Translations under genes and position numbers: made by a program
The notes under the pieces: generated by a model
Databases searched by the model: none
The model's input: only the letters and a program-made list of their open reading frames with translations
Told to the model about the DNA's origin: nothing
In this document: piece after piece, positions 48,219 to 52,171 of the stretch
How the letters are laid out: the number at the start of each line of letters is the position of its first letter
Numbering within the stretch: the stretch's first letter is position 1
Assembly (NCBI GenBank): GCA_937935075.1
Contig: CALGYB010000134.1
Location: 1 to 52,286, forward strand
Length of the DNA stretch: 52,286 bases
Source: an uncultured Roseiflexus sp.
GTDB lineage: Bacteria > Chloroflexota > Chloroflexia > Chloroflexales > Roseiflexaceae
Direction: 5' to 3'

Positions 48219-48224
48219 GAGGCG

Positions 48225-48379: not shown

Positions 48380-49717
48380 TCAGACCGCCCACGCCGGAAT
48401 AGAGATCATTGTTGGCGGCAGGGATTGTTCCGCCAGACAGATCACCCCGCCGCTGCCGATGCGTATGTCCAACCGCTCCAGCGCCCCGAAATGCTGAACA
48501 TCCTTCCGTCCTGGCGATGCGGTCTTCTTGATCTCCAGCGGGTGGATCACCCCGTCTTGCACCAGCAGCAGATCAATTTCTCGCCCGTCTCTGTCGCGGT
48601 AGTAATAGAATGGCGGTCGTCGCCCGGCGTGCCGGTAGCTCTTCAGCAATTTTGCGACGACCCAGGTTTCCAGAATGGCGCCCGACATCGCGCCTGCCTC
48701 AAGCGTCTCCGGTGTCGCCCATTCCGTCAGATACGCCGTCAGACCGGTATCGAAGAGATAGATCTTGGGCGTCTTGACCAGCCGTTTGGTCACGTTGCTG
48801 TGATACGGTTCCAGCAGATAGATGATGCCAGATGCCTGGAGGATTGACAGCCAGTGTTTCGCTGTATTCGTCGCCACATCCGCAACGCGTGACAGATCAG
48901 CGAGGTTCAGGATCTGCGCTGTGCGTGCAGCCGCAGCTCACAGAAAGCGCAGAAACGCGAGTTCATCGCCGACGCGCGCCAGATCGCGCACATCGCGCTG
49001 GAGGTAGGTCTGAACGTAGGATCTGTAGAACAGGTCACGATCCATCGCTTCGTTGAGCGCAATGGCAGGCAGCGATCCACGCCGGATCAGCCGGTACAGT
49101 TCCTTGAGCGTCAGTTGCTTCATACCCGCAGTACGATAGACGATCTCCTCCGGCGTCGGCGTGGAGGGGCGCGCCTCCAGTCCCCGGCGCATCAACTCCC
49201 ATCTGGACAGCCCCAACAGGTTCAGCACAGCGACACGACCAGCCAGTGACTCGGAAATGCCTTTCATAAGGTGAAACTGCTGCGAACCAGTAAGCCAGAA
49301 CATACCCGGCTCACCGGCGCGATCCACTGCCATTTTGAGGTATGGCAGCAGACCGGGGGCATACTGGATTTCGTCGATCAGGAGAGTGGGCGGAAACCGC
49401 TGCATAAACAGCGCCGGATCGGTTCTGGCAAGATCCAGAACGAGCGGATCGTCCAGAGTGATATAGGTGCGCCGTTCCTCAGCGAGATGTCGCAGGAGCG
49501 TCGTCTTGCCCACCTGGCGTGCGCCGGTCGCCAGCACAACGGAAAAGTGCCGGGCGGCGTCGAGGATAAGCGCTTCGAGCGTTCTTGGAACGTATACCCT
49601 GCATCTCTCCTGTATCGGCTGATCTGCATTGCGGTTGCAGGATAGCCGATTATCGTCGGGCCGACAAAGGCGCTGGGCGCGGATCGACTCTGCTGCTCCG
49701 GGAAGTACGGACTGCAC
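48380..49717 (-). pseudogene. AAA_14/DUF4143 ATPase interrupted by one TGA
   Basis: The N-terminal half has the P-loop VVLATGARQVGKTTLLRHLA, Walker B TLLIDEIQYAPGLLPYL and LTGSQQFHLMKGISESLAGR. It runs through DLFYRSYVQTYLQRDVRDLA to FLRFL and a TGA at 48938-48940. Directly after, in the same frame, come AAAARTAQILNLADLSRVAD and TAKHWLSILQASGIIYLLEP, then the DUF4143 nuclease-like end (YRDRDGREIDLLLVQDG, PLEIKK). One C-to-T change in a CGA codon would explain the stop. Its start is uncertain: conserved sequence begins at about 49597, where GTA stands in place of a start codon, and the nearest GTG is at 49717. Members of this family are common in variable regions; their function is unknown. 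Confidence 0.85.
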
Positions 49718-49731
49718 CTGACCAGAAATGA

Positions 49732-49740
49732 TGGTATATT
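49732..49740 (+). promoter_or_regulatory. Putative extended -10 for the OLD-like gene
   Basis: TGGTATATT at 49732-49740 resembles the extended -10 seen at other genes in the window. It is 170 bases before the chosen ATG, so the leader would be long, or the true start lies further upstream. Confidence 0.3.
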
Positions 49741-49909
49741 TTTGATACGCGAAACCGGCACGCGACGTTGCGTCGCGCAATGTGCGCTGTTTGTCCCTTT
49801 CACATCGGTCGATGATTTGGGAAAGTCCTATGACATCGTGCAAGGCAGCGTGCAAGCGGAATGTGCGACGCGTCATTCATCACCTGTCGCTGCTATCAGC
49901 GAGGCTGTT

Positions 49910-51625
49910 ATGCTCACTGCGCTGACGATCAGAAACTTCAAGCTGTTCACCGATGTTGCCATCGATCTGGGTGAACGGGTCGTATTCATCGGGCCGAACA
50001 ATTCCGGCAAAACATCGGCATTGCAGGCCCTTGCCTTATGGGATGTCGGCGTGAAGCGGTGGCTGGAACGGCGGGGGAGCGGCGCCATTCCGGCTGAACG
50101 GGCTGGCGTGACGATCAACCGTAAAGATCTCCTTGCCATTCCTGTGCCTTCCGCAAATTTGTTGTGGCGAGAATTGCGCGTGCGGGAAGGTGAGCGACAC
50201 GACGGCAAATCGCGCACGCGCAACGTGCGTATCGAGATTGGCGTTGCGGGCAGCGATGATCAGCAGTGGCAGTGCTGGTTAGAGTTCGATTATGCGAACG
50301 AAGAGTCGATCTACTGTCGCCCTCCTCTTGGTCCCGACAATGCCCGCATGGCGGTGCCGGCGCATCTCAAACGCTTGCAAGTCGCATATTTGCCGCCAAT
50401 GTCCGGTCTGGCAGCCCGTGAGGATCGGCTTGAGATGGGATCAATTCGGGTGCGACTTGGTGAAGGACGAACCGCAGAAGTGCTCAGGAATCTCTGCTGG
50501 CAGGCGGTGCAGAGTGAGAACGGCGAGCAGAAGTGGCAGGAGATATGTGAGTCTATCGAACGACTCTTCGGTTCCCGATTGCTTCTTCCACAGTATATTG
50601 CCGAACGGGGCGAGATAACACTGCACTATCGCACCCGTTCCGGCACAACGCTCGACATCTCCTCCAGCGGGCGCGGTGAGCAGCAAACGCTTCTCTTATT
50701 GGCGCATATGGCCGTCCATAGCGGCGCAGTGCTGCTATTGGACGAGCCGGATGCGCATTTGGAGATTCTCCGGCAACGGCAAATCTATGATGTGCTGACC
50801 CGTCAGGCCGAACGCACCAAGAGTCAACTCATCGCAGCCAGCCACTCCGAAGTGGTCATGAACGAAGCAGCGCAACGGGATGTGGTCGTCGCCTTTGTCG
50901 GTCGCCCCCATCGAATTGATGATCGCGGATCGCAGGTGTTGAAGGCGTTGCGCGAGATTGGTTTTGAGCACTACTATCTGGCTGAAACGATCGGTTGGGT
51001 GCTCTATCTCGAAGGCGCTACCGATCTGGCCATGCTGCGCGCCTTTGCAGAACGGATCGACCATCCGGCTCGATCACTCCTGGAGCGCCCATTCGTTTAT
51101 TACGTCGCCAATCAACCGCGCAAAGCGCAGGAACATTTTTATGCACTCCGTGAGGCGAAATCCGATCTTGTCGGCATTGCCGTGTATGACCGGTTAGAAC
51201 GGGGGTTGCCAGACGACCCGAACCTCAGACAGTACATGTGGTCGCGCTATGAACTGGAAAATTATCTCTGCTGGCGCGAAACGCTGCTGTCCTTCGCTGC
51301 CAGCAAAGGCGAGGAATACGAAGGGGCGCTCTTCACCGGCCGCTGGCGCGACGCTATGGCTCAGGCAATACAGGAAATTGAACATGCGCTGCGCTTGCTC
51401 GGCAAAGATCCGTGGGGAGGCGACATCAAAGCCGGTGATGATTTCCTGACGCCGCTGTTTCAGCGTTTTTTTCAGATTCTTGATCGACCGAATGAGATGA
51501 ACAAGACCAATTTTCACGTACTGGCTGCATTCGTGCCACCAGAAGCGATCGATGACGAGATCCGACAGGTGCTCGACGCCATTAGTGACGTGGCGAAGCT
51601 GGCGCGCCCCCGCGTCGATTCGTGA
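49910..51625 (+). CDS. OLD-like ATPase with TOPRIM-like C-terminal domain
   Basis: 571 residues. An SMC/RecF-type ATPase half: MLTALTIRNFKLF, Walker A FIGPNNSGKTSAL (about 24-36), signature SSSGRGEQQTLLLLAHM and Walker B GAVLLLDEPDAHLE (near 245-290), and a His in IAASHSEVV. The second half (from about 360) has LYLEGATDLAMLRAF, VYDRLERG and SRYELENYLCW, matching the Glu and Asp signatures and the ENYL box of TOPRIM domains in OLD, Gabija and PARIS-type proteins. Such proteins are ATP-controlled nucleases, often anti-phage. No helicase or second subunit is adjacent, so it is a stand-alone candidate. I chose the ATG at 49910, just before the beta strand of the ATPase fold. The metal site looks reduced relative to DxD-type enzymes. 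Confidence 0.82.
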   Translation: MLTALTIRNFKLFTDVAIDLGERVVFIGPNNSGKTSALQALALWDVGVKRWLERRGSGAIPAERAGVTINRKDLLAIPVPSANLLWRELRVREGERHDGKSRTRNVRIEIGVAGSDDQQWQCWLEFDYANEESIYCRPPLGPDNARMAVPAHLKRLQVAYLPPMSGLAAREDRLEMGSIRVRLGEGRTAEVLRNLCWQAVQSENGEQKWQEICESIERLFGSRLLLPQYIAERGEITLHYRTRSGTTLDISSSGRGEQQTLLLLAHMAVHSGAVLLLDEPDAHLEILRQRQIYDVLTRQAERTKSQLIAASHSEVVMNEAAQRDVVVAFVGRPHRIDDRGSQVLKALREIGFEHYYLAETIGWVLYLEGATDLAMLRAFAERIDHPARSLLERPFVYYVANQPRKAQEHFYALREAKSDLVGIAVYDRLERGLPDDPNLRQYMWSRYELENYLCWRETLLSFAASKGEEYEGALFTGRWRDAMAQAIQEIEHALRLLGKDPWGGDIKAGDDFLTPLFQRFFQILDRPNEMNKTNFHVLAAFVPPEAIDDEIRQVLDAISDVAKLARPRVDS

Positions 51626-51821: not shown

Positions 51822-52145
51822 ATGAGTCTACTGCAAAAAGGCTTAACCACCAAGGACACGAAGTCAAGGACACGAAGCACACGAAGGGGGATAAAGATGA
51901 AGCGCATGTCCTTCGTGTCCCTTGGCGCCCTTCGTGGTTGCTTGGTGCGGTGAAGTAACCACCAAGGACACGAAGAGCACGAAGGTGAGTAAAAATGAAG
52001 CGCATGTCCTTTGTGTCCCTTGGTGACCTTCGTGGTTGCTTTTTGCCGTGAAGTCATGGAAGGCTCAACCGCCAAGGACCCGAAGTGCACGAAGGTGAAT
52101 AAGAAGAGCATTTCCTTTGTGTCCCTTTGTGACCTTCGTGGTTTC
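51822..52145. repeat. Three tandem AAGGACACGAAG palindromes
   Basis: Three units in a row, each with a left arm (ACCACCAAGGACACGAAG), a centre ATGAAGCGCATG and a right arm (CCTTCGTGTCCCTTGG or close): about 51822-51956, 51957-52054 and 52066-52145. The first has an extra ACACGAAG block. Orientation is opposite to copies B-D. This and the following REP element fill 51626-52286, where I see no gene. Confidence 0.85.
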
Positions 52146-52171
52146 ATGGTTGCTTTTTATGGTTTTCGAGA

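Follow-up and report, generated by a model that had tools for sequence, protein, structure and literature searches.

PARIS, which Ocr-like proteins trigger and whose AriB cuts tRNA-Lys, couples an ABC ATPase to a TOPRIM nuclease. AriA keeps the tRNase AriB in check, and the arrival of an anti-restriction protein ends this restraint (PMC11455837), a scheme also laid out in PMC12409363; fused, single-gene AriAB forms are described as well (PMC9122126, PMC12409363). In the class 1 OLD layout, the ATPase and the Toprim domain share one chain (PMC10568477). Lone ATPase-TOPRIM proteins include P2 Old, cited as cutting host tRNA, and YbjD (both in PMC13261556), together with IbfA and HEC-04 (PMC12111858); the gene of HEC-04 lies inside a different defence system, and protection against T4 and T5 is reported for it. 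According to PMC12796447, Cran1, an archaeal OLD-class protein, is essential for cell-cycle progression. A review of the field asks whether lone OLD proteins defend alone and whether single-chain AriAB should count as a separate class (PMC10568477).

We herein describe a gene from an uncultured Roseiflexus sp., located in a stretch of 52,286 nucleotides (the window), that encodes a 571-aa ATPase-TOPRIM protein (positions 49910-51625; the gene and all its features lie on the plus strand). The reading frame is intact, the ATG start codon at 49910 is backed by the family alignment and kept among homologues, and the gene occurs once in its own 4.85-Mb genome. The product combines an ABC/SMC-type ATPase (residues 1-354) with a TOPRIM domain (about residues 361-565) in one polypeptide, so that the one-chain arrangement proposed in the initial annotation is upheld by the Pfam matches and the C-terminal fold. 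A scan of genome contigs yielded 31 relatives. Twenty-five are complete homologues, alignable with the window protein over their whole length (54-77% identity), and make up, with it, the 26 members referred to below; L007, L019, L026, L029, L030 and L031 were left out of the alignment as broken or cut. The start, Walker A, SGRGxQQ, Walker B, H-loop and C-terminal motifs agree across the alignment, and the relatives form a coherent family. In all seven pairs compared, dN was 0.11-0.28 while dS was at least 1.2 or saturated in both halves; hence the ATPase half and the C-terminal half are each under purifying selection. The family thus represents a known general kind, the single-chain ATPase-TOPRIM protein, and is well conserved, with a distinct active site. 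It is not named as such in the profile libraries and open-licence literature searched, and we found no description of it in the latter.

The N-terminal domain (49910-50971) is supported by Pfam, with AAA_21 (4.8e-19) and AAA_15 (7.2e-18) as matches, and by structure comparison, in which its fold resembles PtuA, SMC heads and AriA (Z 16-19.5) and likewise Rad50. The ATP site is conserved. Walker A, GPNNSGKT (residues 28-35; 49991-50014), is invariant or nearly so among the 26 members, as are SGRGxQQ, LDEPDAHLE and ASHSE; the first two of these belong to an ABC signature-like SSSGRGEQQ (residues 251-259; 50660-50686) and a Walker B region LLLDEPDAHLE (residues 275-285; 50732-50764), both assigned from the alignment. 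The loop LPPMSGLA...GEGRTAEVLRN (residues 160-196; 50387-50497) is one of the best-conserved parts of the family, yet it has the lowest model confidence (pLDDT below 50 at residues 165-186), and a version of it is retained in distant prophage-type relatives. The loop possibly serves in sensing or coupling. The PADLOC AriA profile matches the window protein at 2.6e-20 and all 26 members, a match that is unspecific since NsnB, mad3, GajA and others match too.

The C-terminal part (TOPRIM core and C-terminal helical part; 50990-51604) matches no Pfam family at a meaningful score. Its structure, predicted from 27 aligned fragments, reached a pLDDT of 95.3, and the best PDB matches of the model are two AriB chains, 8ux9_A (Z 10.9; 191 of 226 residues at 4.3 A) and 8v46_D (Z 10.4), which align over 191-192 residues at 4.3-4.4 A. 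Lower ranks are taken by BpOLD (8.3), Eco8 (6.9), GajA (up to 6.9) and TsOLD (6.8), with PH0156 and XccOLD also present. Foldseek likewise places AriB 8ux9_A on top, with a weak E of 1.9e-3, and nothing in the viral structure library was matched at E<=0.001. At the sequence level, the window domain alone, compared with 5027 defence models, matched only AriB (0.016) and AriAB (0.052) at E<=1. When the 27 fragments were compared with the defence models, AriAB matched seven and AriB two, the best value, 5.7e-6, possibly stemming from a longer L031 fragment that reaches into the ATPase. The AriAB model PDLC02981 has its best match of the genome here, one that begins ahead of Walker B and extends into the ENYL box, whereas a second AriAB model, PDLC02982, gave no match at the gene. 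The PDLC02981 score is 66 bits, against published fused-PARIS cut-offs of 80 bits for AAA_15 with DUF4435 and 20 bits for AAA_21 with DUF4435 (PMC9122126), the model possibly being a different profile from the one used there. DUF4435 (PF14491) was absent from all 26 members at E<=1 and had no match in the window's own genome; hhalign of the C-terminal profile with four DUF4435 proteins was not significant (probability 0.5%, E 0.11), and the same profile matched no PDB sequence at E<=10. Kinship with AriB is thus suggested weakly by sequence and well by the predicted fold. We rejected PARIS membership by sequence, DUF4435 being missing in 26 of 26, and describe the protein as AriB-like without filing it as PARIS. 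The PARIS/OLD-like fold anticipated in the initial annotation nevertheless stands: a TOPRIM fold is predicted, AriB and then OLD proteins and GajA are its matches, and these reach beyond ordinary DNA-repair ATPases.

The C-terminal motifs singled out from the window alone, namely LEGATD, a conserved Asp and an ENYL box, all proved near-invariant over the 26 members. LEGATD (51008-51025) provides E368 and D372, each kept in 25 of 26. D427, kept in 26 of 26, opens the sequence D427-R-L (51188-51196), in which the first Asp of the DxD motif is retained and the second is Leu; position 429 is acidic in no member (Leu in 21, Ile in three, Ser and Pro in one each). In the ExENY box, E448-L-E450-N-Y (51251-51265), E448 lies two residues ahead of the ENY glutamate E450, and both are invariant, as is K507 (51428-51430), which may correspond to the catalytic lysine of OLD proteins. 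In BpOLD, metal A is associated with E400, D455 and D457, and metal B with E404, T506 and E508, with K562 nearby; the TsOLD sets are E377/D431/D433 and D381/S478/E480 (PMC6755086, PMC7049728). Assigned by motif order and spacing rather than by structural alignment, the window equivalents would be E368, D427 and Leu429 for metal A and D372, E448 and E450 for metal B, with K507 presumably corresponding to K562. Five of the six OLD nuclease positions are kept.

A wider active-site table comprised 86 distinct rows (91 selected ORFs and the window protein, six duplicates dropped); since the rows are related, its counts are not independent events. E368, D372, D427 and E450 occur together in 80 of the 86. 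The second DxD Asp is missing in 63 rows, of which 60 have E448, two (L086 and L087) lack it and one is unscorable. It is present in 23 rows; seven of these, all DGD, carry Glu at 448, and the other 16 have a different residue: Asn in seven D[YF]D rows, His in seven prophage-type rows, and Cys and Asp once each. Read from these residues, the simplest order of change would be that E448 was gained first and the second Asp lost later. The reduced acidic cluster noted from the window alone is therefore real, but the accompanying suggestion that the protein may not cut does not follow from it. E448 is invariant in the 26 members, and together with the distant relatives that keep DxD it suggests how the site originated, so that a missing second Asp does not imply a dead enzyme. 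Moreover, in BpOLD this Asp contacts metal A through waters only, and the D457A single mutant cleaves in vitro with no discernible effect of the substitution (PMC6755086). Separately, two members found in the phylum of G408, L086 and L087, have lost E368 to Ala and carry Gly or Lys in place of E448; they look dead and are possible pseudo-enzymes.

Set against the described systems, the window family resembles PARIS in joining an ABC ATPase to a TOPRIM domain whose closest solved structure is AriB, and differs from it in having neither a DUF4435 match nor the second DxD Asp. With the class 1 OLD proteins P2 Old, TsOLD and YbjD/OldB it shares the single chain, the N-terminal ATPase, the C-terminal Toprim and the lack of a fixed partner. 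Unlike them, however, it keeps the conserved Toprim set of Glu, DxD, (S/D)xE and Lys only incompletely, the second Asp being gone; its presumed metal-B site reads ExE as opposed to SxE in TsOLD and DxE in P2, and TsOLD is a weaker C-terminal structural match than AriB (Z 6.8 versus 10.9). GajA, the class 2 OLD protein of Gabija, likewise combines ATPase and TOPRIM in a single chain but matches less well in structure (Z up to 6.9). Gabija membership was rejected, there being no adjacent GajB helicase or other common partner. HEC-04 and IbfA, compared by description only, are also single-chain ABC ATPase-TOPRIM proteins. IbfA has 518 aa, and its close homologues are described as mainly Enterobacteriaceae plasmid genes (PMC12111858), in contrast to the eight distant plasmid matches of the window family. 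HEC-04 was neither among the best 25 defence-model matches of the window protein nor among the C-terminal domain matches at E<=1.

The gene occurs widely, yet patchily. The family spans 11 named phyla, which are intermixed in the tree; Chloroflexota and Pseudomonadota each require at least two changes at supported branches, yet members of one phylum still group together somewhat better than chance. At E<=1e-60, the gene was found in 12 of the 400 genomes from the window's phylum (two of the five from its genus among them), in 30 of the 396 from the phylum of G408 (L017's genome, Acidobacteriales) and in eight of the 398 from that of G412 (L025's genome, Gammaproteobacteria), where seven are merely distant.

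The window locus itself is variable, as was supposed initially, and the flanking features reported there are confirmed. Synteny with four congeners ends at the end of an acyl-CoA dehydrogenase gene (window position 48219), past which two of them, G166 and G335, show mutual collinearity; the G335 copy of the family gene is on a different contig from the acyl-CoA dehydrogenase, and the family gene occupies different places in two congeners. On one side, outside the system, lies an AAA_14 ATPase gene (48380-49876, minus strand) broken by a single in-frame stop (48938-48940), and on the other, equally outside it, are three imperfect repeat units of about 100 bp with palindromic arms (51845-52150, plus strand; spacing 98 and 106). 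No restriction-modification (RM) or other defence gene neighbours the gene in the window. A short stretch at about 48280-48350 matches many places in congener G395.

No partner gene is conserved: any neighbour family is common to at most three of 32 loci, in agreement with the earlier view that there is no helicase or second gene. RM or helicase genes nevertheless adjoin eight of the 31 loci of the first set, a count based on Pfam searches of 20 neighbour proteins picked by eye from the ORF list, and four of these loci lie within RM operons. In L005 the gene sits between a type III methylase and the restriction subunit, in the sister lineages L012 and L014 it is flanked by genes for a ResIII protein and a methylase, and in L013 it comes after HsdM and HsdS and before GmrSD and HsdR. 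The remaining neighbours are an Eco57I-type protein (L002), a C5 methylase (L016), a type ISP protein (L025) and a helicase with NOV_C (L026); an HSDR_N protein 1.7 kb upstream in L015 was left out of the count. In the second set, none of 28 loci matched any of 13 probes derived from the first-set RM and helicase neighbours, nor did the probes match anything in 40 control stretches taken from those genomes. A DISARM-like gene was found by PADLOC beside at least one of the 40 control centres, so the RM background is not zero; this figure of 1/40, read from the PADLOC tally with no assignment of hits to ORFs, may be low. The tallies covered 111 of 112 adjacent member ORFs (L020:1328-5791 was dropped) and 80 control ORFs. 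Fisher's test gave p 0.0045 for 8/31 versus 1/40, and p 0.058 for 8/59 versus 1/40 with both sets combined. Hence the RM link is not general, and enrichment as a general rule was rejected on the second-set result; because the two sets were examined by different methods (Pfam versus first-set-derived probes), the association is only a lead. The anti-phage role put forward in the initial annotation accordingly receives only indirect support: patchy spread and the first-set neighbours speak for it, the second set against it.

Since a patchily distributed gene joins a sensor-type ATPase to a domain resembling the PARIS effector with an altered site, we consider the protein probably a stand-alone immune protein. 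A single-gene system of class 1 OLD-like build with an AriB-like TOPRIM effector is the reading we favour, with somewhat better than even confidence, and we lean slightly more firmly towards defence by a live nuclease. Nuclease activity, an RNA target, trigger sensing and phage defence are functions that we infer from these comparisons. Counting against this reading are the non-significant DUF4435 comparison, the lack of a defence neighbour in the window locus, the second-set loci and the loss of E368 and E448 in L086 and L087. The ATPase half would probably dimerise on ATP and would hold the TOPRIM half silent as long as no phage cue is sensed; the freed TOPRIM half would then act as a metal-dependent nuclease and halt the infection. 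Its most likely cut would be in RNA such as tRNA, as for AriB, with DNA nicking less likely; tRNA specifically is a tentative choice of target. That the family is a separate lineage of single-chain immune proteins with a rewired two-metal site, the second DxD Asp having gone once an invariant Glu had arisen in the ExENY box, and that it plugs into unrelated RM systems as a second line and fires when restriction is blocked, seems to us unlikely.

One alternative is an immune nuclease whose substrate is DNA, nicked or degraded as by class 1 OLD proteins in vitro or by GajA, and not RNA. It would suit the class 1 OLD layout (PMC10568477) and the fold matches to BpOLD, XccOLD, GajA and TsOLD; we regard it as doubtful, given that structure and HMM comparisons both put AriB on top, that a helicase partner is missing and that P2 Old is cited as a tRNA cutter (PMC13261556). 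It is improbable, in turn, that the TOPRIM half is catalytically dead and merely binds or regulates, any defence then coming from the ATPase half. All 26 members lack the second DxD Asp, L086 and L087 have lost further site residues, and in P2 Old every nuclease-site single substitution tested abolished lethality (PMC7049728). However, E368, D372, D427 and E450 are co-retained in 80 of 86 rows, E448 is found in 60 of the 62 scorable rows that lack the second Asp, the C-terminal half is under purifying selection, and BpOLD D457A is silent alone (PMC6755086).

Two further readings would place the gene outside immunity or make it selfish. A role as the cell's own repair, replication or cell-cycle protein, like RecF/SMC-type ATPases or Cran1, would agree with the likeness of the ATPase half to SMC heads and Rad50, with the many loci beside non-defence genes (e.g., L003, L022 and L030), with its carriage by 30 of 396 genomes in the phylum of G408 and with the cell-cycle essentiality of Cran1 (PMC12796447). 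We hold this to be improbable too, if marginally less so than a dead TOPRIM half, because the gene is missing from 388 of 400 genomes of the phylum and three of five of the genus, occupies different sites in two congeners, is inserted inside RM operons and has its phyla intermixed. A selfish gene of the addiction type, carried along with RM systems and penalising their loss, is brought to mind by the positions between RM subunits in L005, L012, L013 and L014; such neighbours are missing at 23 of 31 first-set and all 28 second-set loci, however, and we find this very unlikely. Returning to the favoured single-gene immune protein, the family would provide many compact natural examples, some within RM operons, for the question raised in the review cited above. 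Defence annotation would be broadened as well, since searches that depend on DUF4435 would miss the members of this family. Moreover, the evolutionary series DRD with His, DYD with Asn, DGD with Glu and DRL with Glu makes the role of the second DxD Asp directly testable.

Relatives on viral contigs and plasmids are mostly distant, which counts against the immune reading. No relative was found in the phage records searched, and the eight plasmid matches are all distant (about 22-26% identity). Viral contigs carry 21 relatives, two of them close; full-length prophage-type relatives at 22-28% identity are found there in L037, L039, L043, L045, L046 and L049. These have the same loop and ENY box as the family but carry DRD with His448, in an RRHxENY-type arrangement (LDNY in L039). 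Partial forms were seen as well. In Solimonas variicoloris, the ORF L030:6001-7140 stops after about 379 codons near a contig end, the TOPRIM half being missing, and on a viral contig L035:6001-8219 comprises the ATPase half only, with a second ATPase-like ORF directly after it.
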